A DNA stretch of 39,009 bases from positions 1 through 39,009 of the forward strand of contig JAGBVS010000023.1 in NCBI GenBank assembly GCA_017630195.1, written 5' to 3'. The notes beneath the pieces are model-generated. The model did not search any database and was not told where the DNA came from. It was given only the letters and a program-made list of their open reading frames with translations. Every line of letters begins with the position of its first letter. Position 1 is the first letter of the stretch. This document shows, piece by piece, positions 596 through 37,296 of the stretch. The position numbers were made by a program, and so were the translations under genes. The stretch comes from Bacteroidales bacterium. GTDB lineage: Bacteria > Bacteroidota > Bacteroidia > Bacteroidales > F082.

Positions 596-643
596 TCCAC
601 GAATCCGTAAAGTCTCCACGTATCTCGAGTATCTGCACGTATC
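596..643. repeat. Degenerate tandem phrase, CACG(A/T)ATC type
   Basis: The spacer carries loosely repeated units of the form CCACGAATC, CCACGTATC and GCACGTATC. A related string (CCACGGATC, TCACGGATC, TTCACGAAG) occurs at 14121-14153, after another gene. At 647-660 a 14-mer follows whose reverse complement CAGAACCTCAGAAG recurs exactly at 37154-37167. There is no coding potential. The rest of the 496-756 spacer is AT-rich and empty apart from the promoter at 543-573 and the repeat at 716-750. Confidence 0.5.
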
Positions 644-715
644 TTTCTTCTGAGGTTCTGAATTTCTTAGTTTTAAAAACAATAAAAACCTCCCTTCAAC
701 GTTTCCTCCAAAAAA

Positions 716-750
716 CTTGTAGTCTTGTGGTCTTGTAGTCTTGTAGTCTT
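716..750 (+). repeat. 8-bp tandem repeat CTTGT(A/G)GT x4
   Basis: Four consecutive 8-bp units (CTTGTAGT, CTTGTGGT, CTTGTAGT, CTTGTAGT) plus a partial CTT end six bases before the ATG at 757. The same 8-bp family recurs at 6871-6894 (reverse orientation), 6946-6956 and 15782-15813. No other gene feature explains it. Confidence 0.8.
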
Positions 751-756
751 AAAAAA

Positions 757-1329
757 ATGAAACATCTTGTCATAATCGGAATAATCTTTTTAAGCTGTCT
801 TTCATTGAAAGCACAGAACAAATATTTCCCGATAAAAGGAAGCATCGTTTCTGCCGATAGCCTCTCTCCTATTCCTGATGCTCATATTTTAAGCGAAATC
901 TCATATTACGGAACGACATCCGACACAAATGGCAAATTCGCCATGCTCGTGAAAAAAATCGACACTTTAAGAATTAGCAGCGTTGGTTTCGTAACTAAAT
1001 TGATTCCTATTTATTACGATAGCATCGACGACAACAAATTCAATATCGTCATGCAAAGAGACACAGTCATGCTTCAAGAAATTGATGTTTTTCCTTATTT
1101 GGACAACCACACAGTTAAAGATATTATAAGTCAGATTCCTATAAAAGAGCCTATGATTATTAAAGGTGTGAATGAAAACATCGAAGCTGTCTTATATCAA
1201 AAGCCAAAGAAAATTCCAAACGACAAAGGCATCTTAAGCCCTGTTCAGACATTATACAATCGTTTCAACAAAAAGGAACGACTCAAGAGAAAATTAGAGA
1301 GAAACAGAAGAAAATATTTGATTGATTAG
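757..1329 (+). CDS. Exported CarboxypepD_reg-like domain protein
   Basis: A 190-residue exported protein. Residues 1-19 form a typical signal peptide (hydrophobic core IIGIIFLSCLSL, cleavage after KA). Residues about 25-100 form a CarboxypepD_reg-like beta-sandwich: the pattern IKGSIVSADSLSPIPDAHI, then GTTSDTNGKFAM, then RISSVGF is characteristic. This is the fold found at the N-terminus of SusC-type receptors, but no plug or barrel follows. The C-terminal 40 residues are very basic and end in a run of Lys/Arg. The role is unknown. It is probably a periplasmic or outer-membrane-associated protein. The start is fixed by the signal peptide. Confidence 0.8.
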   Translation: MKHLVIIGIIFLSCLSLKAQNKYFPIKGSIVSADSLSPIPDAHILSEISYYGTTSDTNGKFAMLVKKIDTLRISSVGFVTKLIPIYYDSIDDNKFNIVMQRDTVMLQEIDVFPYLDNHTVKDIISQIPIKEPMIIKGVNENIEAVLYQKPKKIPNDKGILSPVQTLYNRFNKKERLKRKLERNRRKYLID

Positions 1330-1384
1330 CTTGCTTAACATTCGTCTTGTTTCCACAATCCGTCTCCGTTTACACGAAAAGAAT

Positions 1385-1409
1385 CTGTCGCCTTAAAAAA
1401 AAGCGACAG
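1385..1409. terminator. Hairpin between convergent genes
   Basis: A perfect 7-bp stem CTGTCGC/GCGACAG encloses a loop that is mostly A. It is followed on the plus strand by TTGTTATTCTTAT and on the minus strand by ATTCTTTT. It lies between the converging 757-1329 gene and ptrB, so it may terminate both. Confidence 0.55.
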
Positions 1410-1421
1410 TTGTTATTCTTA

Positions 1422-3455: not shown

Positions 3456-3459
3456 AATG

Positions 3460-5796: not shown

Positions 5797-5823
5797 TTCT
5801 GTGTTTATTAAAATAAAAAAAAC

Positions 5824-5861: not shown

Positions 5862-5952
5862 CGAAAAAAAAGTCAAAAATAGAATGATTTTTTCAACAAA
5901 AAAGTAAAAAAATAAGCTTCGAGAACAACTCAAAGCTCATCATTACAATGTC

Positions 5953-6852
5953 TCATCGATTCATTGATTTCTCTTGCGCCTCTTTTATCAGTTCGAGTTC
6001 TTTAGCGGAGAAATGTTCTGGGAGCAGAATCTGCACTTTAAGCAGCAGAGCTCCAGCGCCTTCCTTGCCATAGTGTGGCATTCCGAGTCCTTTGAGTCGC
6101 AATGTGCTATTATTTTGTGTCTGAGGTTTTATAGGCACGTTGACATCGCCTTTAAGAGTATTTACGGTTATCTTTCCACCGAGTATTGCAGTATAGACAT
6201 CAATGTTAACATTTCGTATAAGGTCATCGCCATCACGTTGATAGACATGGTCGTTCATTATGACCACCTTGATAAGGAGATCGCCGTTTTCTCCACCGTT
6301 TCTTCCGGGATGGCCTTTACCTTTCAGGCGAAGAATCTGTCCGTCGCGCACGCCCTCTTTTATCGTAATTTTTATCGAGCTGCCGCCAACATCAATAAGA
6401 CGCTGTGAGCCTTGATAAGCTTCTAATAAAGTAAGGTTAATCGTAGCGTTGATGTCGCTGCCTTTTGCCGGACGAGTTGTGCGTCGTCCGCCCATTCCGC
6501 CGCCCATAAAGTCTCGGATGTCGAATCCGGCTGCACCGCCTTGTCCGCCAAAGAACATATCGAAGAAATCGGAGAAGCCGCTTGCATTGAAGCCATGAGC
6601 GCCGCCACCGAAACCAGCATTTTCATATTGCTTCCAGTTAGCGCCAAGCTCATCATATTTCTTGCGTGAATCCGCATTACCTATAACTTGATAAGCCTCA
6701 GATATTTCCTTAAACTTCTCCTCAGCCACCTTGTCGTCAGGATTCTTGTCGGGATGATATTTCACAGCTAACTTACGATACGCCTTCTTGATATCATCCT
6801 GCGAAGCAGAACGCTCAACTCCTAATATTTTGTAATAATCTTTGTATTCCAT
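5953..6852 (-). CDS. cbpA: DnaJ-family co-chaperone, CbpA type
   Basis: A 299-residue J-domain protein that stimulates the ATPase of DnaK. Residues 1-70 are the J domain with the essential HPD at 33-35 (KYHPDKNP). A Gly/Phe-rich linker follows (about 75-120, [23 protein letters not shown]). The C-terminal substrate-binding beta-sandwich domains start near [20 protein letters not shown] and contain [14 protein letters not shown] and [12 protein letters not shown]. The cysteine-rich zinc-finger region of full DnaJ is absent, so this is a type II (CbpA/DnaJ2) protein. The start is fixed by the family [12 protein letters not shown]. It may be DNA-associated as in E. coli, but this is not shown here. 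Confidence 0.92.
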
Positions 6853-6870: not shown

Positions 6871-6894
6871 TCAACAAGACAACAAGTCAACAAG
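6871..6894 (-). repeat. 8-bp tandem repeat CTTGTTG(A/T) x3
   Basis: On the minus strand the units CTTGTTGA, CTTGTTGT and CTTGTTGA lie in the leader of the J-protein gene, 19 bases before its ATG. A further single unit CTTGTTGTCTT is at 6946-6956 on the plus strand. They belong to the same family as 716-750 and 15782-15813. Confidence 0.75.
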
Positions 6895-6958
6895 TATTTA
6901 TGACGTTAACAAATCGCAAAATTTTCTATATGTTCAAAATCAAAGCTTGTTGTCTTAA

Positions 6959-7879
6959 TTAATATCTGTAAATTTCAAAATCGGATATTGCTCCTTCAAA
7001 TTGTATATTGATTTGTTTATCTGCAATGATATAATTTGAAGTTTCGTACAAACTTCCAGATTTTTTGTCAAATCCATCGAAGTTTTTATTACTCAACACC
7101 GACTCGCATTTTATCCTGCAACCTGATTTTTCAGGGATTCCAATTCTAATATCAGACACGCCTGTTGCAAGCACCACATCCGTAAATTCCGACAAATCGC
7201 CCAATTTAATATCTATGTTGCAAGCACCGCTATTAATTTCAAGATTCGACACTTTGTATGGAGAAAAATCGAAATTCATATCACAAGCGCCGAGATTCAC
7301 TTCAAAATCATATATTGGATTTTTATTTAATGCAATATTAAAATTATTAGATTTAAAATCATTTCCATTAATACTGACATCATTTCCACCTTCAAAATTT
7401 ATCTCAGCATTATTCCCATCATAAATGACAGAGAAATCCTGCATTATATAATTACTTGCATTTGTTGCTTTAACGAGATAATCTACTGGCGATGACAAAA
7501 ATAAACTTCCAGCTCCATAATTAATTTCTACATCGGCAGTTTTGACATTAATATTATAAGGTTCTGAGAACTCTTGCACATTAACATCATCATCTATCAT
7601 ATCATAGCTGAAAGAAGCCGGATGTTTAGTATTATCATTGATATTATTATAATACAATATACACGATAACAATATCAATATTATCACAAAAACTGACTTT
7701 AAAAATTTATTCAAAGGAAGGATTGATATACCGAAGATTATCACAAATACAGGCCAGAATTTTGCGAGTTCCGACCATACTATTTCCAAGTCAAAAAAGG
7801 TAACCATCAATGCAATGATTCCTATTGCGATAAGAATTATACCATTTACGAGACCATTATCTTTATTATCTTTACTCAT
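6959..7879 (-). CDS. LiaF-like membrane protein with toast-rack beta domain
   Basis: A 306-residue protein. After a short charged N-terminus there are about three hydrophobic segments in residues 10-80 (LVNGIILIAIGIIALMVTFF, then FWPVFVIIFGISILPL, then VFVIILILLSCILYY), matching the LiaI/LiaF-like transmembrane module. From about 100 on it is a beta-rich, periodically repeating domain (VEINYGAGSLFLSS, FEVNLGACDMNFDFS, LEINSGACNIDIKLG) of the toast-rack/LiaF C-terminal type. Proteins of this type sense or modulate envelope stress with PspC-domain partners. The gene overlaps the end of the PspC gene by 8 bp and has a strong Shine-Dalgarno, so the two are co-expressed. The exact signal is unknown. 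Confidence 0.8.
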   Translation of the reverse strand: MSKDNKDNGLVNGIILIAIGIIALMVTFFDLEIVWSELAKFWPVFVIIFGISILPLNKFLKSVFVIILILLSCILYYNNINDNTKHPASFSYDMIDDDVNVQEFSEPYNINVKTADVEINYGAGSLFLSSPVDYLVKATNASNYIMQDFSVIYDGNNAEINFEGGNDVSINGNDFKSNNFNIALNKNPIYDFEVNLGACDMNFDFSPYKVSNLEINSGACNIDIKLGDLSEFTDVVLATGVSDIRIGIPEKSGCRIKCESVLSNKNFDGFDKKSGSLYETSNYIIADKQINIQFEGAISDFEIYRY

Positions 7880-12175: not shown

Positions 12176-12751
12176 ATGAAAAAAGATATTATATTAGCAG
12201 GTGTTGGCGGTCAAGGTATCCTCAGTATCGCTTCATGTATAGGCATCGCTGCTGTAGAGAAAAACATGTATCTCAAACAAGCTGAAGTTCACGGCATGAG
12301 CCAAAGAGGCGGCGACGTTCAGTCACACCTCCGCATCTCTGACAACGAAATAGCTTCCGACTTGATTCCAGAAGGCAAAGCAGACCTCATCATCTCTGTA
12401 GAGCCAATGGAAGCCCTCCGTTACTTACCAATGCTCGCTAAAGACGGCGTTATCATCACAGCTAAAGCTCCTTTCATCAACATCGACAATTATCCAGAAG
12501 TTGAAACTGTTTACGCTGAATTAAATAAACATAACGCTATCATCATCGACGCTGACGAATTAGCAAAAGAATGTGGCAATGTACGCGCAGCTAACATGGT
12601 AATATTCGGCGCAGCTGTTCCTTTCCTCGGCTTCGAAATGGAAACAATAGAAAACAGTATCCGTGAACAATTCGGCAAAAAAGGTGAAGAAGTCGTTTCT
12701 CTCAACCTCAAAGCAGTTGAAGCAGGATACAAACAAGCATTAAATAAATAA
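12176..12751 (+). CDS. iorB: Indolepyruvate ferredoxin oxidoreductase, beta subunit
   Basis: The 191-residue gamma-type POR domain subunit that pairs with IorA. It has the family N-terminus DIILAGVGGQGILSIASCIG, the block AEVHGMSQRGGDVQSHLRI, and EPMEALRYLP. It follows iorA after 23 bp on the same strand with the same codon bias, and a strong terminator stands right after it, so iorAB form a complete two-gene operon. It is cytoplasmic. No ferredoxin or phenylacetate-CoA ligase gene is adjacent. Confidence 0.95.
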   Translation: MKKDIILAGVGGQGILSIASCIGIAAVEKNMYLKQAEVHGMSQRGGDVQSHLRISDNEIASDLIPEGKADLIISVEPMEALRYLPMLAKDGVIITAKAPFINIDNYPEVETVYAELNKHNAIIIDADELAKECGNVRAANMVIFGAAVPFLGFEMETIENSIREQFGKKGEEVVSLNLKAVEAGYKQALNK

Positions 12752-12803: not shown

Positions 12804-12843
12804 TAATTCATAATGCATAGCATAATTCATAATGCATAATTAA
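12803..12843. repeat. Tandem phrase AATTCATAATGCATA x2
   Basis: Two near-identical copies of TAATTCATAATGCATA are followed by ATTAA. A 16-mer from it, AATTCATAATGCATAA, recurs exactly at 34357-34372, where it overlaps the start of dprA. A related string lies at 25574-25609. Confidence 0.7.
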
Positions 12844-12877: not shown

Positions 12878-14107
12878 ATGAAATTCCGTGAAATAATCGC
12901 TCATTGCTCACAACTCACAGCTCACAGCTTATTGTTAATTGTTTTAAGCTTATTCTTATTTTCCTGCGGCAATAACGATAATGCCGAAAATAAAGAAAGT
13001 AAAAAGCATAAAGAACCAGAATTTCTTTACGGAATTTGCATTGACAACTACGATGTTCGTATTGACACAATTAGAAAGAATCAATTTCTTTCAAACATAA
13101 TGTTAAAACAGAATGTCGATTACAACACCATCACTCATATAGAGAAAAACCACAGAAAGACATTCGACATCAGAAAGATAAAACCAGGACAGAAGCACAC
13201 CTTTTTAATAAGTCGCGACAGCATCGCACAAGCTGTCTTCTGGATTTATGAAATCAATAAAATAGACTACGCAGTCTTCAGCCTCACCGACTCGCTCAAC
13301 GCTTGGATTGGACACAAAGAAGTTACGACGAAGATAGAAACCATAGAAGGCACCATCGAGTCTTCATTATGGAACGCTGTTGCAGCGACAGGAGGCGACC
13401 AAAACATAACAATGGAATTATCAGACATATACCAATGGACAGTGGATTTCTTCGGCATACAACCAGGCGATGCATTCAAAGTGGTATATGAAAACAGATA
13501 TATAAAAGACGAATGTATCGGCATGGGCAAAATTCTCGCCTCTTATCTTAACAACGCAGGCTCTGAACATTATGCCTATTATTTCGAACAAAACGGCAAA
13601 GGCGAATACTTCGACAAAGAAGGCGCTAACCTTCGCAAGGCTTTCTTGAAAGCTCCGCTCAACTATCGCCGCATCAGTTCAACATTCTCAAATGCAAGAA
13701 AACATCCAGTCACTAAAGTCGTACGACCACATCATGGAGTTGATTACGCTGCGCCTACAGGAACACCTGTCGTTACCATCGGCGACGGCACTGTCATCGA
13801 AAAAGGCTGGGACAAAAAAGGCGGAGGCAATTACATAAAAATCAAACATAACAGCACTTACACGACCACTTACATGCACCTCAACGGCTTTGCAAAAGGC
13901 ATACAAAAAGGAAGTAAAGTCAAACAAGGACAGCTCATCGGTTATGTTGGAAGCACCGGCATGTCAACAGGTCCACACTTGGATTTCAGATTAAACAAAA
14001 ATGGAAAATACATCAACCCATTAACTTTTGAATCGCCATCCTCTGAACCAGTGAGCGAAGAGAATAAAGTGGCATTTGAGGAAGTGATGAGCAAGTATGA
14101 GATTTGA
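12878..14107 (+). CDS. M23-family metallopeptidase lipoprotein
   Basis: A 409-residue cell-wall hydrolase-type protein. The N-terminus is a lipoprotein signal (hydrophobic LLLIVLSLFLFSC, acylated Cys30), so it is probably anchored in the membrane. Residues about 45-270 are a non-catalytic regulatory region. The C-terminal LytM/M23 domain carries His285 and Asp289 in HHGVD, His334 in YMHL and His367 in GPHLDF. The second His of the usual HxH pair is Asp369 here, a zinc-ligand change also recalled from other Bacteroidota M23 proteins. Residues 9-17 (HCSQLTAHS) are encoded by an intergenic-type repeat phrase, so the start region may have been extended by it. The family cuts peptidoglycan cross-bridges. 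Activity of this variant is not certain. Confidence 0.88.
   Translation: MKFREIIAHCSQLTAHSLLLIVLSLFLFSCGNNDNAENKESKKHKEPEFLYGICIDNYDVRIDTIRKNQFLSNIMLKQNVDYNTITHIEKNHRKTFDIRKIKPGQKHTFLISRDSIAQAVFWIYEINKIDYAVFSLTDSLNAWIGHKEVTTKIETIEGTIESSLWNAVAATGGDQNITMELSDIYQWTVDFFGIQPGDAFKVVYENRYIKDECIGMGKILASYLNNAGSEHYAYYFEQNGKGEYFDKEGANLRKAFLKAPLNYRRISSTFSNARKHPVTKVVRPHHGVDYAAPTGTPVVTIGDGTVIEKGWDKKGGGNYIKIKHNSTYTTTYMHLNGFAKGIQKGSKVKQGQLIGYVGSTGMSTGPHLDFRLNKNGKYINPLTFESPSSEPVSEENKVAFEEVMSKYEI
12911..12932. repeat. Repeat phrase inside the M23 signal-peptide coding region
   Basis: CAACTCACAGCTCACAGCTT is a short internal repeat of (A)CTCACAG. The 16-mer ACAGCTCACAGCTTAT (12917-12932) recurs exactly, inverted, in the non-coding spacer at 20599-20614. 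Confidence 0.65.
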
Positions 14108-15781: not shown

Positions 15782-15813
15782 CTTGTTGTCTTGTTGTCTT
15801 GTAGTCTTGTTGT
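15782..15813 (+). repeat. 8-bp tandem repeat CTTGT(T/A)GT x4
   Basis: The units CTTGTTGT, CTTGTTGT, CTTGTAGT and CTTGTTGT stand in exact 8-bp register in the narrow spacer between a terminator and the stop of the kinase-like gene. Same family as 716-750 and 6871-6894. Confidence 0.8.
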
Positions 15814-15817
15814 CTTC

Positions 15818-16555
15818 TCACTCCACCATCTTCTTCACCGCAACAAGGTTCTTTCCTTCTTGCAATGCTGCTCTTACCTTAGCGATGCCTTTAACAACAT
15901 AGAACTTGCCATCTCTTTTTTCTATTTCAATGTCATCTGAAGCATCAGTTGCTGTTTCATTTTCAATGATGAGGTTCTTTGGAGAAAGCAATATTCTGTC
16001 GTATTCCTCACCTTGTTCAAAGGCTCTGAAATTGCTTAAAACAGCATCATTGACTTCATCTTTTGTAGCGTGACTTGTGTCAATAATGAAATCGTAATTG
16101 CTGTAGTTGTTGATATCGATATTATAGAAAGTCTTGTATCTCAACACTTCGCTTTCTCTTCTCTCGATGATTTCTTTCTTGGCGGTCGCCATATCGGAAT
16201 ATGATTCACTGACGCGACCTTTGTCGTTGAAGATACGTTCTGTTGCTGTATCGACATCGACGTACATATAGATTTTGAATGACTTAGGCACGAAATACCA
16301 AGCGAGGCGTGAATCGAAGATGATGTTTTCTTCTTTCTCGCCCATCTCCTTAATGGTATCATCGACCATATTGTCATACTTAGGATTACTTTCAATAAAC
16401 TGATTAAATTCTTTTGCCGACATTCCGTGTTGCTCAGCCAATCTCCTGAAAATCAATCCTGCTGATTCTATTCTATAGTTAATATTATTTATCAAATGAT
16501 TGGCGACAGTACTTTTGCCACTTCCCAAATCGCCGGCTATCGTAATATTAATCAT
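15818..16555 (-). CDS. Cytidylate-kinase-like P-loop protein
   Basis: A 245-residue protein whose first 185 residues form a small nucleoside-monophosphate-kinase fold: Walker A GDLGSGKST at 8-16, a lid-like region with RVSESYSDMATAKKEIIERR, and DFIIDTSHATKDEV near the end of the fold. This is the archaeal/bacterial cytidylate-kinase-like family (AAA/CMK2 type), not the main Cmk. A C-terminal extension (about 190-245) contains IEIEKRDGKFYVVKGIAKVR, a small beta domain of unknown role. The true substrate is uncertain. It follows two membrane-protein genes after 20 bp, so it may share their transcript. Confidence 0.78.
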   Translation of the reverse strand: MINITIAGDLGSGKSTVANHLINNINYRIESAGLIFRRLAEQHGMSAKEFNQFIESNPKYDNMVDDTIKEMGEKEENIIFDSRLAWYFVPKSFKIYMYVDVDTATERIFNDKGRVSESYSDMATAKKEIIERRESEVLRYKTFYNIDINNYSNYDFIIDTSHATKDEVNDAVLSNFRAFEQGEEYDRILLSPKNLIIENETATDASDDIEIEKRDGKFYVVKGIAKVRAALQEGKNLVAVKKMVE

Positions 16556-16575: not shown

Positions 16576-17037
16576 TTATTTTTCAACATTAGATATGTCT
16601 GTCACTTCGTCAATTAACTTTTTATTTAATGTGACAAACACTTTTAAAGGAGCCATGACAATTACCATCATCACTTCAAGAAAATATATCAACCATACAT
16701 GATCATTAGATGTAAAAAGTTGATACACAAGAAGTATTATTGTAAATATCATGAACATATACTTTCCGTATCTTTTTCGTCTGAAAAGGAAAATCAGACT
16801 CACGACTACCATCCCGACTATAAACCATAAAACAGCTGACATAAACATTGTTTTGAACAAGGTTTCTTCGGAATATGCCGGGTCATAAACGCTTCTGTAG
16901 AAGAAGCCAAAAACAGTAAGAAGCAAGAAATACAACGAATAAAACGTAATAGCGAATGTGCCGACAAGTTTGACACCTAATGTCAGCTTTCTTCCTCTAA
17001 TAAAAATATCCGGTAATTCTTGTTTCTTCTTTATCAT
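16576..17037 (-). CDS. Hypothetical four-helix membrane protein, 153 aa
   Basis: About four hydrophobic segments are visible: near 22-50 (VKLVGTFAITFYSLYFLLLT), 65-90 (MFMSAVLWFIVGMVVVSLIF), 95-112 (YMFMIFTIILLVYQLF) and 117-137 (WLIYFLEVMMVIVMAPL). It has no signal peptide and no recognised family. Its start overlaps the stop of the upstream membrane-protein gene by 4 bp (ATGA), so the two are translationally coupled and probably form a complex. Confidence 0.7.
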   Translation of the reverse strand: MIKKKQELPDIFIRGRKLTLGVKLVGTFAITFYSLYFLLLTVFGFFYRSVYDPAYSEETLFKTMFMSAVLWFIVGMVVVSLIFLFRRKRYGKYMFMIFTIILLVYQLFTSNDHVWLIYFLEVMMVIVMAPLKVFVTLNKKLIDEVTDISNVEK

Positions 17038-17537
17038 TTCATAACTTTTTTATAATGAGAGAAATACATCATTACAAACAAGGCTGTCCACAAAATAGGA
17101 CCGAATGGGAATCCACCTCCAATTTTACTTACTACACATATTGATGTCGCAATAAGCATCAAAATTTGAGCGATTGCATAGACATGGAAACCTCTTTTTT
17201 GTAATTTCCACATCATCAATACACCTACGAATGATGCGATAAATAAAACCATCTCGATGAAATAATAACCTCTGCCTACAGAGAATGCCAAGGCTGAAGC
17301 TTCTGCCATCGTTTCCCAACTATCGCCCATCTGTTCTGCCATATCTGCAAACATCCCTTCTCCATTTCTCATCTGTTCAAAAACATTTTGAAAAGTATCA
17401 TAAAATGCAAAAGAAATGAAATTAACTATACCATTATAAACAGCATTAATGAACGATAAAATACATATTACCGTTAACATCTCCGGTCTTTTAGCTGGTT
17501 CTTCCTGTTCTATATTGTAATCTTCTTGATATTCCAT
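17034..17537 (-). CDS. Hypothetical four-helix membrane protein, 167 aa
   Basis: The first 17 residues are acidic and polar. Four hydrophobic segments follow (near MLTVICILSFINAVYNGIV, YYFIEMVLFIASFVGVLMMW, YAIAQILMLIATSICVV and GPILWTALFVMMYF). Between the first two is a Met/Glu-rich loop (about residues 48-75). I do not recognise the family. It heads a likely three-gene unit with the 153-aa membrane protein and the kinase-like gene. A repeat phrase (GACTAAAGGCTAAAG) occupies its upstream region. Confidence 0.7.
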   Translation of the reverse strand: MEYQEDYNIEQEEPAKRPEMLTVICILSFINAVYNGIVNFISFAFYDTFQNVFEQMRNGEGMFADMAEQMGDSWETMAEASALAFSVGRGYYFIEMVLFIASFVGVLMMWKLQKRGFHVYAIAQILMLIATSICVVSKIGGGFPFGPILWTALFVMMYFSHYKKVMK

Positions 17538-17550
17538 ATTATTAAAGTTT

Positions 17551-17578
17551 AAAGGCTAATGACTAAAGGCTAAAGGTA
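17551..17578. repeat. Phrase repeat (A)CTAAAGG / GCTAATGA
   Basis: AAAGGCTAATGACTAAAGGC continues with TAAAGGTATG. The 15-mer GACTAAAGGCTAAAG at 17561-17575 recurs exactly at 20559-20573, upstream of hisS. Confidence 0.65.
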
Positions 17579-17611
17579 TGAGTCTTTGTTTATGTTTTTG
17601 TGTTAAAGTTA

Positions 17612-17657
17612 GGAATTGAAAGAAATTCCCTCAACTCCTAACTCCAAACTCCTAATT
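17612..17657. repeat. Short hairpin and phrase CTCCTAACTCC
   Basis: A 6-bp stem GGAATT/AATTCC (17612-17629) may be a weak terminator for hutH on the minus strand. Next to it is a degenerate repeat TCAACTCCTAACTCC then AAACTCCTAA, which runs to the stop codon of hutH. Confidence 0.4.
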
Positions 17658-20551: not shown

Positions 20552-20558
20552 ATAAAAA

Positions 20559-20614
20559 GACTAAAGGCTAAAGACGAATGACAAAAGATTTTTTTGCTAT
20601 AAGCTGTGAGCTGT
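20559..20614. repeat. Two repeat phrases upstream of hisS
   Basis: GACTAAAGGCTAAAG (20559-20573) duplicates 17561-17575. ATAAGCTGTGAGCTGT (20599-20614) is the exact inverse of 12917-12932, inside the M23 gene. CACTCATAACTCATAG follows at 20624-20639. Confidence 0.65.
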
Positions 20615-20702
20615 ATGCAAAAACACTCATAACTCATAGTTCGAAGCCAAGCAAAGAATCTTCAATGTTCAAAAGGCAACAGCTTTGGTTCTTAGTTCGG
20701 TA

Positions 20703-20815
20703 TTGCGTTAGGGATTGAAGCGGCATCCTTTTGGAGACGGAAGCTGGAGACGGAGGCGGAAGCGAAGGCGGAAAAAGATATAGCGGAAAGCCCGACGGCG
20801 GAGCCGGAACGCCCA
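20703..20815 (+). ncRNA. Probable structured RNA element of unknown function
   Basis: This G+C-rich island in an AT-rich spacer has two conserved-looking halves, GGGATTGAAGCGGCATCC (20711-20728) and AAAGATATAGCGGAAAGCCC (20774-20793). CTTTT (20728-20732) can pair with AAAAG (20773-20777) and GGG (20711-20713) with CCC (20791-20793), leaving a large symmetric internal loop in which both sides carry AGCGG. The apical part is a purine-rich stretch of GGAGACGGA and GGCGGAAGC repeats. A GC-rich hairpin CGGC/GCCG follows at 20796-20806. From memory, similar elements recur in Bacteroidota and especially Flavobacteria genomes. I cannot confirm an Rfam name (Flavo-1 is one candidate). It has no open frame of its own. 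Confidence 0.5.
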
Positions 20816-20855
20816 AGACAATAAAATTAAAAAATGCGATATGCATTGCCGATAG

Positions 20856-25573: not shown

Positions 25574-25609
25574 TTCATTATGAATTATGAATTGTGAATT
25601 ATGAATTAG
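25574..25609. repeat. Phrase repeat ATGAATTATGAATTG
   Basis: Units of the form (A)TTATGAA and ATTGTGAA repeat about five times between bamA and the first ompH gene. The stop codon of bamA (25606-25608) lies in the last unit. Related to 12803-12843 and 34355-34388. Confidence 0.65.
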
Positions 25610-28269
25610 TCAATAGAGCCTCCGATTGAGAAGTGGAACTGGCTCTTGTTTGCTCCGCTTATGCCAGGAATATCGTCGAATCCATAACCCCAGTCGATGC
25701 CGAGCATACCGAACATCGGCAAGTAGATGCGGAGGCCAAGTCCTGCTGAACGATAGACATCAAAAGGATTGAAGTTTTGAACACCGAACCAGTCGTTACC
25801 AGCTTCCACGAAACCGAGTGCATAAATTGTAGCTGTCGGGTTAAGAGAAAGCGGATATCTCAATTCCATAGTATATTTTGTAAATATATTACCGCCGAAG
25901 TTTTCATCTATATAATAATAAGGTGTAAGTTTTTCGTTTCCATAACCACGCATACCTATGATTTCTCTACCGTCGAAGTTATAGTTAGACAATCCGTCGC
26001 CACCGAGATAGAATCTTTGGAATGGAGTGATTCCAATATTTTGGTTATAGCAGCCGAGGAATCCGAAACGGACTCTTGTCATAAGGACGAGTTTATCATA
26101 AACCTCAGTGTACCATGCAAGTTTGAATTTCCATTTATGGAATTCAACCCAACGATACATCATATCTTCTCTTTTGGCTCTGTTTTCTTCACCTGGATAG
26201 AGTTCGTTATAATCTTTATCAGAGAATGCTGAATAAGGAGGTGTCAATTCAAGAGAAAGCACCAATTCAGAACCATAACGAGGATAAATAGGCTGACTTA
26301 CTGAGTTACGTCCTACGCTTATGTTGTAACTAATAACATTGAAATGACCATTACCTGAACCGAAATTAAATATAGAAGAATAATTGTTCAATTTATAACG
26401 CATCAAGTTAATTCCATGATAAACAGTGAAATAATCATCAGGCCATGACAAGCGTTTACCGAGTCCGAAAGAGAGACCTGTTGTTTTAAATGTTCCATAA
26501 TTTACACTTTCTCTTTCGTATGGTGTTGCGTATGTTGAATGATATAATGAAGACGTGAATGAATTAGGTTTCTTTCCACCGAGCCAAGGTTCTGTGAAAG
26601 AAAGGCCGTAGTAGAGATATTGTGTTCCGTATGTCTGTACTCTCAAAGAAAGTTTTTGACCGTCACCGCCTGGTATTGGAGTCCAAGCGTCTTTGTTGAA
26701 CATTTTTTTAAATGAGAAGTTATTGAGTGTCAATCCGAGAGTAAGGATAAGGCTGTTATAGCCCCAACCTGCGGAAAGTTCTATTTGGTCTGAGCTTGTC
26801 TCTTCCACTACGTATTCAATATCTACTGTTCCGTCTGATGGATCAGGTTTAATATCAGGATTCAAAGTCTCAGCATTGAAATATCCCAAAGCTGCGAGTT
26901 CTCTTGTTGTTCTTATGACATCGCTTCTGCTGAAGAGCTGACCTGGTTTTGTGTACATCTCACGAATCACGACATGGTCATTGGTTTTTGTATTACCCTT
27001 AACCGATACTTTTCCGATTGTAGCCTGGTCTCCTTCAAACATTCTTATTTCCAAGTCGATGGAATCATTTTCTACTCTAACTTCAATAGGATTGACTTGG
27101 AAGAAGAGGTAACCATCGTCCATATAGATAGAGCTGATGTCATATCCACCTTCGTTATATTGAAGGTTTGTTTGGAGCAATTCTTTGTTATATACGTCGC
27201 CTTTGTGAATACCGAGCACTTTGTTAAGAAGTGTTGTGTCATATTTAGTATTTCCGACCCAGATGATGTCGCGGAAATAATATTTATTGCCTTCATCAAT
27301 ATTGATTGTGATACCGAGGTTTTTATCGTCTATTCTATAAACTGAATCGCTTATGATACGAGCGTCGCGGTAGCCATCTTGATTATATTTAGCGATGATA
27401 TTCAATTTATCATCTTCAAAGTTACTTTCAAGATATTTAGAGCCTTTGAAGATACGAGGGCGATAATTGTCAAAGAAATAATTTGTAATTTTTGTAAAAC
27501 CATCTTTTGGTTTAAGTCTGACAAAATCCCATGTAGCATCTATTACTGTTGGAGCGAGAGGGTTGAGAGGGTCGAAATTTCCTTTCACTTTCGTCTCTTT
27601 CATCGCCTTACGCAACTGATTGTCTGTAAGTTCCTCATTACCATTGATAACTATTTCAGAGATACGTACTTTGGGTCCTTTTTCTATATCAAGAATCAAG
27701 TTAACATAATTGTCACGAGTTGTATCGTTTTCAGCCTTGACATCTACCTCTACATTATGGAATCCTTTGTCAAAATAATAATCTTCAATGATTCTTCTTG
27801 TTTTGGTATAAGTATGTTCTGTAGCGACATCGCCTCTGGTGAGGTTAATTTTCTTTCTAAGTTCATCTGCTTCGGATTTTTTGACGCCTTTGAAAGAGAA
27901 TTTAGATATACGAGGACGTTCTTTCAGGTCGATATTAAGAAATATTTTTCTTCCTATTTTTGTTGTACAAGTTATTGAAACATCTTCAAACAGACCTTGT
28001 TCCCATAATTTTCTGATTGCATTGGTGATTTTATCGCCCGGCACATCAATCATCTCGCCAGGCTGAAGTCCTGAAATCATAACAAGGACCTGAGGATCCA
28101 AATACTTCACTCCTGTTACGGTAACACCACCTATCTCATATTCTCGAGGCAGGGAATAATCGATTTCAGACATATCATTACCCACCTGAATCTGAGCGTT
28201 GACATTGATGCTGAATGTCAAAAACAAACCCAACACGAGTAATAATTTGTTAATATTTTTATGTATCAT
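25606..28269 (-). CDS. bamA: Outer-membrane protein assembly factor BamA
   Basis: The core subunit of the BAM machine that inserts beta-barrels into the outer membrane. The 887-residue product has a signal peptide (LLLVLGLFLTFSINVNAQ), five POTRA domains (about 45-480; for example VTGVKYLDPQVLVMISGLQP and ISEIVINGNEELTDNQLRKA), and a C-terminal 16-strand barrel (about 510-887) with the GGDGLSNYNF and RGYGNEKL loop. Its ATG overlaps the stop of uppS by one base (TAATG). The long insertion after the third POTRA (about 235-285) is seen in Bacteroidota BamA. Confidence 0.96.
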   Translation of the reverse strand: MIHKNINKLLLVLGLFLTFSINVNAQIQVGNDMSEIDYSLPREYEIGGVTVTGVKYLDPQVLVMISGLQPGEMIDVPGDKITNAIRKLWEQGLFEDVSITCTTKIGRKIFLNIDLKERPRISKFSFKGVKKSEADELRKKINLTRGDVATEHTYTKTRRIIEDYYFDKGFHNVEVDVKAENDTTRDNYVNLILDIEKGPKVRISEIVINGNEELTDNQLRKAMKETKVKGNFDPLNPLAPTVIDATWDFVRLKPKDGFTKITNYFFDNYRPRIFKGSKYLESNFEDDKLNIIAKYNQDGYRDARIISDSVYRIDDKNLGITINIDEGNKYYFRDIIWVGNTKYDTTLLNKVLGIHKGDVYNKELLQTNLQYNEGGYDISSIYMDDGYLFFQVNPIEVRVENDSIDLEIRMFEGDQATIGKVSVKGNTKTNDHVVIREMYTKPGQLFSRSDVIRTTRELAALGYFNAETLNPDIKPDPSDGTVDIEYVVEETSSDQIELSAGWGYNSLILTLGLTLNNFSFKKMFNKDAWTPIPGGDGQKLSLRVQTYGTQYLYYGLSFTEPWLGGKKPNSFTSSLYHSTYATPYERESVNYGTFKTTGLSFGLGKRLSWPDDYFTVYHGINLMRYKLNNYSSIFNFGSGNGHFNVISYNISVGRNSVSQPIYPRYGSELVLSLELTPPYSAFSDKDYNELYPGEENRAKREDMMYRWVEFHKWKFKLAWYTEVYDKLVLMTRVRFGFLGCYNQNIGITPFQRFYLGGDGLSNYNFDGREIIGMRGYGNEKLTPYYYIDENFGGNIFTKYTMELRYPLSLNPTATIYALGFVEAGNDWFGVQNFNPFDVYRSAGLGLRIYLPMFGMLGIDWGYGFDDIPGISGANKSQFHFSIGGSID

Positions 28270-32299: not shown

Positions 32300-32306
32300 A
32301 CAACAA

Positions 32307-33215: not shown

Positions 33216-33231
33216 TTATGCTTATTTTGCG

Positions 33232-33263
33232 CAAAGGTACATATTTTTATTTTATAAAACTAA
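33232..33263 (-). promoter_or_regulatory. Promoter of rsgA operon
   Basis: On the minus strand TTAG (33260-33263), 20 bp, TACCTTTG (33232-33239). The -7 box is exact and the -33 box has one mismatch. Confidence 0.6.
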
Positions 33264-33268
33264 GTCAT

Positions 33269-34369: not shown

Positions 34370-34388
34370 AACGCACAATTCATAATTT
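34355..34388. repeat. Phrase CAATTCATAATGCATAA overlapping the dprA start
   Basis: CAATTCATAATGCATAACGC is followed by ACAATTCATAATT. The 16-mer AATTCATAATGCATAA (34357-34372) is identical to one in 12803-12843. It contains the start codon of dprA and supplies its leader. Confidence 0.75.
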
Positions 34389-34408
34389 TTGATTTATAAT
34401 TCCAAGCA

Positions 34409-34441
34409 CAAAAATACAATTTTATTTTATTGAAAACCAAA
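34409..34441 (-). promoter_or_regulatory. Consensus promoter of dprA
   Basis: On the minus strand TTTG (34438-34441), 21 bp, TATTTTTG (34409-34416). Both boxes match the consensus. Confidence 0.75.
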
Positions 34442-34467
34442 CATTTATGTTAATTTTTATTAAGAAT

Positions 34468-34542
34468 TAGAGATGCAGAGGGACTAGAGATGCAGAGGGA
34501 CTAGAGATGCAGAGGGACTAGAGATGCAGAGGGACTAGAGAT
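34468..34542 (+). repeat. 17-bp perfect tandem repeat TAGAGATGCAGAGGGAC x4
   Basis: Four identical 17-bp units fill 34468-34535, and a partial fifth (TAGAGAT) follows. The perfect identity suggests a recent expansion or an active VNTR. It is not a CRISPR: there are no spacers. Confidence 0.95.
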
Positions 34543-34550
34543 TGTGACAC

Positions 34551-34636
34551 TCCTTCCCCTCTATCCCCTCTATTCCCTCTTATCCCTCCACACCCTCTAT
34601 TCCCTCTATTTCCTCTTATCCCTCTATTCCCTCTTA
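34551..34636. repeat. Degenerate CCCTCTATTCCCTCTTAT repeat, left of the IVP gene
   Basis: About nine units of CCCTCTATT and CCTCTTATC are packed in register. The right end overlaps the last codons and stop of the four-helix-bundle gene. The same phrase is on its other side at 35080-35168. Confidence 0.8.
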
Positions 34637-34974
34637 TAACCATTTATTATCTTAAGACAACCCGATGAGATATGTTTAATTTTGTTTTGAAGCTCAATTC
34701 GTGTTGCTTTATCGCACAAATTAAAATCTTCACACAAATACAACATCGAACTAACCTCAGCACAACTACCTCTAGAAACTTTTAAATGAAAAATAAACCT
34801 CGCCGTAGATCCTGAATCCAAGCCCTCTGCAATATTATTCATAACACTAATCACAGCCCTTTGAATCTGATCTTTGAACCCATAATCTTTACATACAGAC
34901 ATCATTTTATAAACATCATTCACAAGACTCCTCGACATCTGCCAAATGTACATTTCTTCAATACTTTTTATCAT
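34624..34974 (-). CDS. Four-helix-bundle protein (23S rRNA intervening-sequence protein family)
   Basis: A 116-residue helical protein of the S23/IVP family: IEEMYIWQMSRSLVNDVYKM, then QIQRAVISVMNNIAEGLDSG, FIFHLKVSRGSCAEVSSMLY, and a C-terminal helix. In some spirochaetes and others such genes lie in 23S rRNA intervening sequences, and a related fold is Avd of diversity-generating retroelements. Neither rRNA nor reverse transcriptase is here. The function of the free-standing form is unknown. The stop codon and last residues (YKRE) are encoded by a repeat unit, and the gene is flanked on both sides by the same repeat phrase. Confidence 0.88.
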   Translation of the reverse strand: MIKSIEEMYIWQMSRSLVNDVYKMMSVCKDYGFKDQIQRAVISVMNNIAEGLDSGSTARFIFHLKVSRGSCAEVSSMLYLCEDFNLCDKATRIELQNKIKHISSGCLKIINGYKRE

Positions 34975-35079
34975 AATTTTAATTTTTGCAGTTACTCAAT
35001 CATTATAACTAAATAATTATCAATTTATTATAGTTAAAAATAATTAACATTCATCTATACCAAACAACCCCATCACCTT

Positions 35080-35168
35080 CCCCTTTATTCCCTCTTATCC
35101 CTCTTATCCCTCTACTCCCTCTATTCCCTCTTATCCCCTCTATTCCCTCTACTCCCTCCACTCCCTCT
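35080..35168. repeat. Degenerate CCCTCTATT repeat, right of the IVP gene
   Basis: About ten 9-bp units such as CCCTCTTAT, CCCTCTACT, CCCTCTATT and CCCTCCACT end 20 bp before the promoter -7 box of the next gene. It matches 34551-34636 in sequence and orientation. Confidence 0.85.
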
Positions 35169-35188
35169 CAATCCTCAAAAAAAAATCG

Positions 35189-35196
35189 TATCTTTG
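35189..35196 (+). promoter_or_regulatory. Promoter -7 box of the glycosyltransferase gene
   Basis: TATCTTTG matches TAnnTTTG. The -33 position lies in the CCCTC repeat and has no TTTG. The expected transcript start (about 35203) lies about 16 bases before the TTG start. Confidence 0.55.
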
Positions 35197-35218
35197 CAGA
35201 AATTTTAACAACAACGTT

Positions 35219-36295
35219 TTGGGGAAGAATATATTAATATGTCCGTTAAACTGGGGATTAGGTCATGCCACGCGCTGCGTCCCTATCATCAAGGGACTCT
35301 TGGATTTAGGACAGAATCCTATCATAGCTGCCGATAAAGCTCCTTTGTCATTTCTACAGAAAGCTTTTCCTGATTTAGAGATAATAAAGCTTCCAGGTTT
35401 CGACCCTATTTACAGCAAAAGCAACTCTCAGGTTTTCAAATTATTAGCATCATTACCTACAGCTTTTTCCGATTTCAAGAAAGAACATCGCGACATTGAA
35501 ACAATCGTAAAAGACCATAACATCGACATCGTGATTTCAGACAACAGATTCGGCTGCTGGAGCGAAAACGCACATTCTGTTTTTATGACACACCAGCTTC
35601 ATATTCAGACTCCTAACTTATTCAAATGGACTTATCCTTTCATAAATAAAATAAACAACAATTACATTAAGCACTACAATGAACTATGGATTCCTGACAA
35701 TGAAAATGAACCTTCGTTATCTGGAATCTTAGCCCATCCAGCCGATGTTAAAATCAAAAGCAGCTACATCGGATTATTAAGCCGTTTTTCCACTGATATT
35801 CAAGAAGATGATAAAGACATCGATTATTTAGTCATTTTATCAGGACCAGAGCCACAACGTAGCATCTTCGAAAACATCATAGTAAAACAAGCGCATGAGG
35901 TCAGTGGCAGAATCGTGATTTTAAGAGCCAAGCCTAACCAAAACGATCTGCCTTATAACATACCAGAAAACATAACATTCTTCAATCATGCCGACGACGA
36001 TTTCTTTGTCGAGCTTATCGCTAAATCAAAGAACATCATTTGTCGCGGAGGCTATTCCTCTTTGATGGATTTAATACGCCTTAACAGAAGTGCACACCTC
36101 GTCCCTACTCCAGGACAGACAGAACAAGAATATCTCGCTGATTATCTTACAAAAAAAGGACTGTTCAGCAGTTGCAGACAGAAAAATTTCAAATTCAAGA
36201 ATGTCAAATGTCAACAGTCTTTTCCACAAAATCATTTCTCGAAAGTCAACGAACAGCTCACAGATTTTTTAGAGAATTGGTTGAACAGTTTTTAA
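35219..36295 (+). CDS. MurG-like glycosyltransferase family protein, TTG start
   Basis: A 358-residue protein of the GT-B fold. The N-terminus ILICPLNWGLGHATRCVPII is the family block and YSSLMDLIRLNRSAHLVPTP with GQTEQEYLADYL is the C-terminal nucleotide-sugar part, as in MurG-type and MJ1255-type enzymes. No donor or acceptor can be named. The start codon is TTG at 35219: the only nearby ATG (in TATGTCC) is out of frame, the promoter sits just upstream, and homologues begin at this point. The gene is read alone, with lgt following 33 bp later. Confidence 0.82.
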   Translation: MGKNILICPLNWGLGHATRCVPIIKGLLDLGQNPIIAADKAPLSFLQKAFPDLEIIKLPGFDPIYSKSNSQVFKLLASLPTAFSDFKKEHRDIETIVKDHNIDIVISDNRFGCWSENAHSVFMTHQLHIQTPNLFKWTYPFINKINNNYIKHYNELWIPDNENEPSLSGILAHPADVKIKSSYIGLLSRFSTDIQEDDKDIDYLVILSGPEPQRSIFENIIVKQAHEVSGRIVILRAKPNQNDLPYNIPENITFFNHADDDFFVELIAKSKNIICRGGYSSLMDLIRLNRSAHLVPTPGQTEQEYLADYLTKKGLFSSCRQKNFKFKNVKCQQSFPQNHFSKVNEQLTDFLENWLNSF

Positions 36296-36310
36296 AAAAA
36301 ATTATTTTTG
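36281..36310 (+). promoter_or_regulatory. Promoter of lgt
   Basis: TTG (36281-36283), 19 bp, TATTTTTG (36303-36310). It overlaps the 3' end of the glycosyltransferase gene and gives lgt its own start. Confidence 0.6.
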
Positions 36311-36328
36311 CAAAAAAATTAAAATATC

Positions 36329-37132
36329 ATGATACTTAATTATGTCGTTTGGGATGTAAATCCTTATATTTTCCACATAGGCGAACGTCCTATTGCATGG
36401 TACGGACTTTTATGGGCAATGGTTTTTCTTGTTGGTTATTACATCATGAAAAACATTTACAAGAGAGAGAACCTAAATGAAGAACAGCTCGACAAATTAT
36501 TGATGTACATGCTGGTTTCCACCATTGTAGGAGCTCGTTTAGGTCACTGTCTTTTCTATGAACCTGAATATTATTTTTCCAATCCAATAAAATTCTTATA
36601 TGTCTGGGAAGGCGGACTTGCCAGCCACGGAGGAGCGATAGGAATTTTGATTGGACTTTACATATACGCTAAAAAAGTCAACAAACCATATATCTGGATT
36701 TTAGACAGAATTGTGATTCCGACAGCCATTGGAGGCGCTTTCATCCGCATGGGAAACCTCATGAACTCAGAGATTTACGGACAGCCAACAACACTTCCAT
36801 GGGGTTTTAAATTTGTAAGAGATTATCCGATAGGAATGCCTATTGAGAACATACCGGCATGTCATCCTACACAGATTTATGAAGCACTTTTCTGCGTGGC
36901 AGTTTTCCTTTATCTTTTACACGCTTATTATAAACAAGACATGGGCGAAAAACGTCCTGGCTTCATGTTCGGAATATTTCTAATTGTTGTCTTTGGTTCA
37001 AGAATATTGATTGAATTCATTAAAAACCATCAAGTTGCATTTGAAGACAATATGGTTTTAGACATGGGACAATGGCTCAGCATCCCATTCGTCATCGTAG
37101 GCATCTGGTTAGTGTTTTTCAAGAGGAAATGA
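36329..37132 (+). CDS. lgt: Prolipoprotein diacylglyceryl transferase
   Basis: It adds diacylglycerol to the cysteine of prolipoproteins at the inner membrane. The 267-residue product has about seven membrane segments, the block ARLGHCLFYEPEYYFSNP, GGLASHGGAIGILIGLYIYA, GNLMNSEIYGQPT and HPTQIYEAL with the essential residues of the family. Lipoproteins predicted in this window (the M23 and FISUMP proteins) are its likely substrates. The start at 36329 follows a good promoter by 18 bases. Confidence 0.96.
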   Translation: MILNYVVWDVNPYIFHIGERPIAWYGLLWAMVFLVGYYIMKNIYKRENLNEEQLDKLLMYMLVSTIVGARLGHCLFYEPEYYFSNPIKFLYVWEGGLASHGGAIGILIGLYIYAKKVNKPYIWILDRIVIPTAIGGAFIRMGNLMNSEIYGQPTTLPWGFKFVRDYPIGMPIENIPACHPTQIYEALFCVAVFLYLLHAYYKQDMGEKRPGFMFGIFLIVVFGSRILIEFIKNHQVAFEDNMVLDMGQWLSIPFVIVGIWLVFFKRK

Positions 37133-37153
37133 GGAATTAGAAATTCAAAATCT

Positions 37154-37167
37154 CAGAACCTCAGAAG
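37154..37167. repeat. 14-mer shared with the 647-660 spacer
   Basis: CAGAACCTCAGAAG is the exact inverse of 647-660 and is preceded, as there, by an AAATTCA string. It follows the lgt stop by about 20 bases. Confidence 0.5.
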
Positions 37168-37206
37168 AACTTTGGCTGTTGAACTAAGGCTTTTGAACCT
37201 TTTTTA

Positions 37207-37254
37207 GTGATAAAGTGATGGAGTAATGAAGTAATGGAGTAATGGAGTGATATT
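37207..37254. repeat. 8-bp tandem repeat GTAATGGA x6
   Basis: Units GTGATAAA, GTGATGGA, GTAATGAA, GTAATGGA, GTAATGGA and GTGATATT stand in exact 8-bp register. After it comes TCCCTCAAA, TCCCTGAAA, TCCTGAAA (37262-37287), another phrase. This spacer between lgt and the IS holds no gene. Confidence 0.8.
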
Positions 37255-37296
37255 ATTACATTCCCTCAAATCCCTGAAATCCTGAAATCCTAAAAA

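Follow-up and report, generated by a model that had tools for sequence, protein, structure and literature searches.

The short repeats that lie across the window, by which we mean the whole 39,009-nt stretch of Bacteroidales DNA analysed here, may well represent a lineage-specific lexicon of 7, 8 and 9 bp words that form small tandem arrays, the commonest of them preferring four units, and that were either copied in from seeds or expanded, a reading that we favour tentatively. An earlier note on this DNA had proposed an STRR-like class, and the repeats indeed recur genome-wide, occur in both orientations and vary between relatives.

Abundance and form of the tandem words

CTTGTWGTCTTGTWGT occurs 87 + 93 times in the 2.74 Mb genome to which the window belongs, AATTCATAATKCATAATKCATAA 15 + 21 times and GRCTAAAGRCTAAAGRCTAAAG 8 + 0 times, far above the reversed words used as controls (0 + 0 for each); the remaining words were checked in samples only. 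For the words counted across the genome, the outcomes that would have spoken against the earlier note, chance-level counts or no recurrence beyond the window, did not occur, and the note if anything put the case too low. Within the window, all six words that had been named as recurring at distant loci were located at their recurrences, in both orientations as in the genome at large, and the reversed-word control was zero for all of them except the single octamer CTTGT.GT, which gave 18 matches against 7 reversed. Since its tandem form gave 7 against 0, the signal sits in the tandem form, and solitary octamers are rare in spacers (5 vs 98 in arrays in genome G000; 5 vs 92 in G009). Across the window and 20 further stretches, 27 12-mers recurred in at least eight distinct spacers, compared to 0, 0, 0, 0 and 1 in five order-4 Markov shuffles, and tandem words occupied 23–27% of the 3′ gene flanks in three species versus 0.2–0.4% in shuffles, densities that are biased upward because the sampled stretches came mostly from contigs with word matches, while polarity, unit number and period should suffer less.

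The earlier note had given units of 8, 9 and 12–17 bp. Short degenerate repeats are real, whereas the units are 7, 8 or 9 bp and most of the 14–17 bp ones are doublets. Nearly all tandem words have these periods or doublets of them, and the arrays, which also appear in the TRF output for the window, thus share with STRR- and heptamer-type repeats short tandem units of about 7 bp at many loci, mainly outside genes. Exactly four units were found in 97 of 155 CTTGT-family arrays, and CTT directly follows the array in 139 of the 155. This sharp four-unit mode without G-tracts is new; a run of three G or C is absent from the CTTGT, TTCATAA, GACTAAA and AAGTCTAT words. Some of the other words also peak at four units and others do not: two-unit runs outnumber four-unit ones for TAGGAAT, GTTTATA and CTCAGAAC, which speaks against the lexicon reading, and likewise for TTCATAA under a loose 5-of-7 match. 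Of the arrays in spacers 69 of 115, and of those within ORFs 22 of 27, have a unit number of the form 1 mod 3 (Fisher p=0.045), and as four units prevail in spacers too, selection for reading frame is not the whole cause.

Ordinary microsatellites, arising by replication slippage on chance seeds and retained in spacers as neutral, would likewise be tandem, mostly outside genes and changing between relatives, and Rehm et al. (2015, PMC4692102) mention a polymerase footprint as an idea put forward for heptamers. However, periods 4–6 are absent, the unit number is sharply peaked at four instead of decaying, the outward polarity is fixed, and one word stands at over 100 sites of a single genome but is nearly missing from 33 congeners. 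Slippage would also leave neighbouring units similar. In four-unit arrays the first two units are indeed mildly alike (0.47 vs 0.36 ± 0.04 in within-array shuffles), but over all neighbouring units there is no order effect (0.401 vs 0.399 ± 0.014), and we therefore consider slippage unlikely. Growth by doubling (1-2-4) was also rejected, as units 1/3 and 2/4 are no more alike than in shuffles.

Placement beside gene ends and outward polarity

In the window, CTTGTNGT arrays stand at 716–750 (+), 15782–15816 (+) and 6871–6895 (−). The first, made of four CTTGTWGT units and a final CTT (35 bp), lies shortly upstream of ORF 757–1329 (+) with ACTACAAG pointing away from the gene; the second, four CTTGTTGT/CTTGTAGT units again ending in CTT (35 bp), adjoins the stop codon of ORF 15818–16555 (−) and reads outward; the third, a three-unit CTTGTTGA/T array, reads outward on the 5′ side of ORF 5953–6852 (−), where the word in G009 is GTCTATAAG. 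A partial copy, CTTGTTGTCTT (6946–6956, +), adjoins the stop of ORF 6959–7879 (−), at the place where G009 carries a long CTTGTTGT/CTCGTTGT array. Between ORFs 12176–12751 and 12878–14107 lies a AATTCATAATGCATAA word array (12805–12842, +; the word is at 12824 and again at 34356), on the 5′ side of ORF 17034–17537 (−) a GACTAAA/GGCTAAA array (17550–17576, +), and immediately past the stop of the gene for the aromatic amino acid lyase (17656–19149, −) a TTAGGAG word array (17630–17655, −), nine relatives carrying other words there. The GACTAAAGGCTAAAG array at 20556–20588 (+; the word is at 20559 and also at 17561) is placed upstream of the −7-like box (TATCTTTG, − strand) of ORF 19161–20519 (−) and is conserved in G009, and a TTCATAA word array (25577–25608, −) is in register with the TAA stop of ORF 25606–28269 (−), this TAA being followed by TTCATAATTCACAATTCATAATTCATAAT.

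TRF further detected a 17-bp unit, TAGAGATGCAGAGGGAC, in 4.4 perfect copies (34468–34542, +), a AGTAATGG array of 4.4 units (37214–37248, +) and a TCCCTGAAA-type array of about 3.3 units (37262–37290, +), and together with word searches two 9-bp arrays, one CCCTCTATT-type with about 8.7 units (34557–34634, +) and one CCCTCTAAT-type with about 10 units (35081–35174, +). Copies of CCCTCTATT lie at 34566, 34593, 34602 and 34620, and also at 35117 and 35136, while CAGAACCTCAGAAG (37154–37167, +) has its second copy ending at 660 on the − strand. The claim that the repeats fill spacers stands insofar as the arrays are mostly outside genes; it does not hold for one copy of ACAGCTCACAGCTTAT, which is found at 20599–20614 (−) and, inside ORF 12878–14107, at 12917 (+).

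Mostly, the words adjoin gene ends and read outward, which is a new observation. Of the CTTGT-family arrays, all 53 of 53 that lie up to 20 bp from a stop codon and 27 of 28 that lie up to 60 bp from a start point outward; within 25 bp of stops in G000 and G009 the same holds for TTCATAA (20/20), GACTAAA (17/18) and TAGGART (10/10). At distances above 25 bp from the stop, several words show little or no polarity (e.g., AGTAATGG, 7 out and 7 in), and the TTCATAA arrays of G045, a genome from another family, lack the outward placement (4 out vs 6 in), an exception that counts against the lexicon reading. Of 114 arrays, 22% have the stop codon in register with their word, versus 2% at other phases. 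Neither of two simple causes was retained. TAnnTTTG follows within 60 bp downstream in 14 of 72 arrays, at 8–9 bp in seven, but words without TTG share the polarity, and a supply of −33 TTG elements is thus not the general cause; a provision of stop codons in all frames was rejected too, as the commonest word has none on the outward strand.

DNA uptake signals with species dialects occur in Neisseriaceae, and the dialects and gene-end positions seen here would suit such signals. Uptake signals are over-represented genome-wide as single copies; the single octamer is instead scarcer than its reversed form (14 vs 60 in G000, 19 vs 49 in G009), the opposite of an uptake signal, which leaves this explanation a next to negligible probability.

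Terminator arms would be expected as inverted word pairs able to form hairpins. Folding is indeed better than in shuffles for spacers that contain a 3′ end (median z in G000/G009: convergent −3.8/−5.4, tandem −2.0/−2.7, divergent −0.3/−1.0), and several relatives carry inverted word pairs in the spacer that follows the lyase gene. Yet both orientations of the CTTGT family share a spacer in only 0 of 22 (G000) and 6 of 27 (G009) of the spacers bearing it, and arrays also lie inside ORFs. Moreover, in 30 of 40 cases a hairpin beside a stop-adjacent array starts −14 to +4 nt from the array's end, indicating that the hairpin stands next to the array and is not made from it. We thus regard terminator arms as very improbable. 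Terminator-like hairpins accompany 16/44 and 24/50 3′ flanks with an array and, at about the same frequency, 31% of 225 and 37% of 213 without.

Arrays within proteins and word changes between relatives

Based on gene calls from our own codon-usage caller, 27 of the 155 CTTGT-family arrays lie within ORFs, 22 of these with four units and mostly in frame; 18 of the 27 occupy ORFs that are 200 aa or longer and keep a distance of 100 nt or more from the start and 90 nt or more from the stop, while at two loci (L044 and L051) the starts may be mis-called. The in-frame arrays encode DYKTTRLQDYK-type peptides in conserved proteins, which from their motifs we take to be TilS, TsaB, PolA, ManC and GH97-, nitrilase- and Fe-S-like proteins. 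That the same arrays occupy, in frame, loops of conserved proteins unrelated to one another is new. Three coding sites have a one-unit and a four-unit allele, and the 24 nt by which these differ within the array leave the frame intact; the change may have run from one to four or from four to one. All four units also differ in concert, being ACTACAAG in G009, TCAACAAG in G000 and ACAACAAG in G066.

A given spacer or protein loop holds different words in close species, and this word swapping, called by eye as same or different word, is likewise new. The CTTGTWGT word was also present in G064, G065 and G066, that is, beyond the two genus genomes of the first count. The bearers of four-copy DNA words are a group of ruminant gut bacteria. 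Block copying is suggested by spacers that are 79–89% alike over 284–331 nt and by a terminator module, in five of five copies of which an array stands in front. Identical four-unit haplotype pairs between loci numbered 39 against 29.6 ± 6.7 expected; such sharing, no greater than chance and unlike recent block copying, weighs against the lexicon reading.

An oligomeric RNA- or DNA-binding protein that recognises the word four times at gene ends, in termination, RNA decay or promoter access, would explain why unit number, polarity and position are fixed, why solitary units are rare, and why most unit positions are nearly invariant with variation chiefly at two; array presence at orthologous spacers also persists above chance (Fisher p=6e-4). 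Such functional binding arrays are nevertheless rather improbable, given the same arrays within conserved proteins, the wholesale word swaps between close relatives and the nearly equal hairpin frequencies with and without arrays. The same facts do not favour the suggestion that the repeats are landmarks for nucleoid or transcription functions, though the arrays may still serve some function.

Known repeats, possible origin and meaning

The STRRs of heterocystous cyanobacteria, reportedly described by Mazel et al. in 1990, are likewise heptameric tandem repeats in spacers. The G-rich heptamers of Xanthomonas (GGGAATC) and Nostoc (GGGGA(T/C)T) are tandem 7-bp units dispersed in spacers, read outward beside ORF ends with some overlapping the stop codon, and vary in length and sequence between species (Rehm et al., 2015, PMC4692102). 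As in that account, the CTTGT family reads outward, while TTCATAA in G045 does not; the majority of Xanthomonas repeats have four units, a preference tied there to G-quadruplexes, which is matched by the CTTGT family but not by TAGGAAT, GTTTATA or CTCAGAAC. In contrast to what is described there, our lineage has many unrelated words of 7, 8 and 9 bp without quadruplex-capable G-tracts, word swaps at the same locus, and in-frame protein inserts with one- and four-unit alleles.

The earlier note knew of no description for Bacteroidales; for the present clade our searches of open-licence PMC papers listed none, whereas TAACTGA direct repeats are reported from Beggiatoaceae, cyanobacteria and five Bacteroidetes, among them Paludibacter with two sets (MacGregor, 2015, PMC4679880). 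These too are short tandem words, mostly intergenic, oriented to genes and patchy among relatives, but in the data presented there they lie mostly upstream of start codons and have two units most commonly, with 819 singletons, while ours lie mostly after stop codons, with four units commonest and singletons rare. Rickettsia palindromic elements also stand in frame in unrelated housekeeping proteins, but as described are palindromic and about 150 bp long (PMC10969869, PMC2996958), whereas our arrays are tandem, not palindromic, about 28–35 bp long, and have alleles that differ by three units. The arrays resemble the Xanthomonas repeats in placement and the Rickettsia elements in protein entry, but are neither. 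In the sources drawn on, mechanism and function of the cyanobacterial and xanthomonad heptamer-type repeats are unsettled (PMC4692102, PMC4679880).

Searches with the RVT_1 and Y1_Tnp models in 14 genomes found no array-writing enzyme, a further point against the lexicon reading. MITE/REP elements with RAYT were rejected, as the commonest word has no palindrome and Y1_Tnp occurs in 11 of the 14 genomes, array-bearing and array-free alike; spread by phage was rejected as well, since three CTTGTWGT units had no match in IMG/VR. RVT_1 matched in nine of the 14, with none in G000 (84% complete), G027 and G011 and a single match in G009, presumably a diversity-generating retroelement in view of the HRDC-like and sulfatase-modifying-factor-like ORFs beside it. 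Going by this one model, we think it very improbable that the words are added by reverse transcription of an RNA template in the manner of telomerase, although the outward strand is the same at both kinds of gene end and DRT10 is reported to use a short RNA template for making DNA of tandem repeats (PMC12632851).

For the lexicon reading, we infer the following course. A 3′ end with an AAG- or TAA-type seed would prime on an array elsewhere and copy it, where seeds could be Lys/Arg codons, the stop codon together with the bases that follow it, or the −7 box of a promoter on its A-rich side; alternatively, a resident single unit may be expanded by three. Arrays would shrink to one unit, mutate, and then be re-expanded or overwritten, giving the word changes, and would survive where disturbance is small, namely after stop codons, upstream of −7 boxes and in protein loops, in which a gain of three units, 21 or 24 nt in all, would preserve the frame. 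No host function is assumed; on this reading the arrays are neutral or selfish repeats, with AAG/TAA seeds as the probable sites at which they are copied in. Whether an unrecognised DNA-writing activity lays down four-unit arrays of fixed strand polarity at such seeds, in spacers as well as in frame in proteins, and rewrites them per species, we consider possible but doubtful.

Since four-unit preference and outward placement are found here with words unable to form G-quadruplexes, another cause is needed, at least in this lineage, and the one- and four-unit alleles in conserved genes offer sites for measuring gain, loss and rewriting. Should a specific writing activity exist, it would be a new mutational agent that also inserts peptides in housekeeping proteins, the arrays would count with the smallest dispersing repeats known so far, and the heptamers of Xanthomonas, Nostoc and Beggiatoa might have a common cause.

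Abundance and distribution of the words

The earlier note had listed six short words recurring at distant loci of the window; all six recurrences were confirmed, and the arrays were also reported by TRF. The window corresponds to contig C159 in the 2.74-Mb genome G000 (84% complete, 213 contigs). With its aromatic amino acid lyase as query, 80 loci of Bacteroidales type were kept, most of them from metagenome-binned genomes of ruminant or other animal origin. The first part of the window shows synteny with genome G009 (DNA identity 84-87%), and G027 matches at 73-86%.

On the two strands, CTTGTWGTCTTGTWGT occurred 87+93 times in G000 and 94+96 times in G009, with 0 matches to a reversed-word control in each. 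Of the 58 other genomes in this 60-genome count, G027 and G055 had one copy each and the rest none, 33 of these being congeners and 23 members of other families. Since it was also present in G064, G065 and G066, which lie outside that count, CTTGTWGTCTTGTWGT is a mark of a clade and not of two species. AATTCATAATKCATAATKCATAA, absent from 54 of 60 genomes, was found in G000 (36), G009 (38), G027 (6) and G023 (1), and in other families in G045 (36) and G051 (3); GRCTAAAGRCTAAAGRCTAAAG was present in 6 of 40 genomes, every one belonging to this genus. In stretches taken mostly from contigs with word matches, which biases densities upward, tandem arrays with a score of at least 12 and periods of 6-10 made up 23.4, 27.0, 23.5 and 10.2% of 3' flanks in G000 (n=269), G009 (n=263), G027 (n=68) and G011 (n=49), compared to 0.4, 0.2, 0.3 and 0% after shuffling. 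In the same order, the shares were 10.9, 14.4, 10.3 and 1.4% of 5' flanks (shuffled: 1.0, 1.0, 2.1 and 0.3%) and 0.2, 0.7, 0 and 0% of coding pieces.

Unit number and placement at gene ends

When the best period was chosen among 3-20, spacer arrays of G000 and G009 had periods of 7 (24 and 39), 8 (63 and 52) or 9 (10 and 3), with 14 and 16 next; periods 4, 5 and 6 were never best and period 3 was best once. By a strict unit definition, the 155 CTTGTNGW arrays in the samples of both genomes had two (20), three (22), four (97), five (11) or at least six (5) units, and CTT followed 139 of them, thus giving a typical element of 35 bp. With looser matching, the mode was four for GACTAAA (31 of 60 runs of at least two units), AAGTCTAT (9/23) and AGTAATGG (5/11). 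For TTCATAA, four was commonest among runs of at least three units (25 of 43), yet there were 46 two-unit runs, and TAGGAAT, GTTTATA and CTCAGAAC had no peak at four. The approximately 1.2-kb spacer between called genes at window 34379-35583 carries a perfect 17-bp array of 4.4 units together with a pair of long CCCTCTATT arrays of 9-bp period, whose 8.7 and 10.2 units clearly exceed four.

Arrays mostly began 1-4 nt past the stop codon. CTTGT-family arrays within 20 bp of a stop had ACTACAAG reading outward, away from the gene, in 25/25 cases in G000 and 28/28 in G009 (54/56 within 25 bp under a slightly different word definition), and those within 60 bp of a start were outward in 10/10 and 17/18 cases. 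The near-stop counts of outward arrays were 20/20 for TTCATAA, 17/18 for GACTAAA and 10/10 for TAGGART, and polarity was weaker at greater distance from stops. The TTCATAA arrays of G045, which are longer, were not outward (4 out, 6 in), and this counts against the generality of the rule. In 22% of 114 arrays, compared to 2% in other phases, the stop codon was a full match to the array as extended backward, as in TAA before TTCATAATTCATAA, TAG before GAATTAGGAATTAG and TGA before GTCAATGAGTCAATGA. A terminator-like hairpin followed 40 of 94 stop-adjacent arrays, starting -14 to +4 nt from the array end in 30 of the 40. A separate hairpin element, GTAGAGACG...CGTCTC, lies in 3' flanks of G000, G009 and G027 and reads outward past stops (17/17 within 25 bp, G000 and G009 together).

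Turnover between species and arrays inside proteins

Among 47 spacers whose ortholog was present in the G009 sample (flanks 87% identical on average), arrays were found in both species in 10, in one in 10 and in neither in 27, a co-occurrence above chance (Fisher p=6e-4; longer spacers, 8e-4). The words differed in about five of the 10 shared-array spacers, as judged by eye. At the convergent spacer L041:16784-16899, the words on the two sides are AAGTCGAT and CTTATAGA in G000, and AAGACTAC and CTTTAGT in G009, placed around a hairpin in each genome. The post-lyase spacer (window 17538-17655) carried word runs or inverted word pairs of several vocabularies in all ten species with both flanks; seven further loci lacked one flank.

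Called ORFs contained 27 of the 155 CTTGT-family arrays, 22 of them with four units and 25 in a stop-free orientation, encoding DYKTTRLQDYK or a frame variant; where the ORF continues, codon usage past the array mostly fits an unchanged frame. Eight such sites were searched in ten genomes, and genomes with a match were compared. A GH97-like gene has four units in G000, G009 and G066, one in G065 and the sequence AAG ACA/ACG GAA/AAA AGC in three relatives. In the gene of an Fe-S protein, G009 carries a single unit where G000 carries four, a difference of 24 nt, and a third gene has four in L066 (G009) and one in L223 (G000), the array parts again being 24 nt apart. Three 7- or 8-bp units amount to 21 or 24 nt, so that a change between one and four keeps the frame. 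Unit numbers of 1 mod 3 were found in 22/27 ORF arrays compared to 69/115 spacer arrays (p=0.045). At another coding site all four units are alike within each genome: ACTACAAG in G009, TCAACAAG in G000 and ACAACAAG in G066. A TilS-like gene has two inserts each in G000 and G009, the first absent from 10 further congener loci. In other relatives the same loops carry other peptides, for example QQTTDNRQQ, QLSNSATQQLSNSAT and VQSSEFKVQS. That arrays are found within conserved, mutually unrelated proteins, and vary freely, speaks against a dedicated gene-end role. A non-tandem HVETYGRTS-type peptide also recurs across several relatives within loops of two distinct proteins (coding loci L274, L285, L286, L288, L289 and L297), as if another dispersed element had entered proteins in frame.

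Possible origin of the arrays

Neither slippage by itself nor block copying by itself accounts well for the arrays: solitary CTTGT-family octamers were scarce, unit order showed no overall neighbour effect and array haplotypes were common to several loci no more than by chance, although unit variants were biased by position (p=1.5e-6) and units 1 and 2 were mildly alike. Block copying does exist: three word-filled G000 spacers (L050:3583-3922, L226:7676-8014 and L209:19221-19580) are alike over 284-331 nt at 79-89% identity, just one pair having a similar flanking gene, and an array precedes one terminator module in 5/5 copies. We favour a reading in which a resident array would be copied to a new site, primed at an AAG/TAA-type seed, with contraction and re-expansion of arrays in addition. 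NAAG preceded the first unit in 104/115 spacer and 23/27 ORF arrays, which is weak evidence for AAG seeding because AAG is also the word's own end. No array-writing enzyme was found in searches of 14 genomes for RVT_1 and Y1_Tnp, or at a G009 reverse transcriptase locus. At this locus (C6, L182:1-2286) the reverse transcriptase ORF follows an HRDC-like and a sulfatase-modifying-factor-like ORF, an arrangement that suggests a diversity-generating retroelement. The window itself ends in a DDE_Tnp_1 transposase ORF (37442-38998, + strand). A dispersed, possibly REP-like repeat around GCGTTAGGGATTGRAGCGGCATCC ... GATATAGCGGAAAGCCCGACGGC lies at about 20690-20830 of the window and at other loci, its 12-mers having been counted in 5-6 spacers in the initial sample from G000 and being present also in L151 and in G009 spacers.

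The placement of the arrays is like that of the Xanthomonas heptamer repeats, whose GGGAATC words, according to Rehm et al. (PMC4692102), mostly come in four units, a preference which those authors connect with G-quadruplexes, whereas the present words have no G-tracts. Like Rickettsia palindromic elements the arrays enter proteins, but they lack a palindrome. Searches of open-licence PMC papers brought up no account of arrays of this kind for the clade, and we regard it as a rather unlikely, though real, prospect that they point to an unrecognised DNA-writing process.
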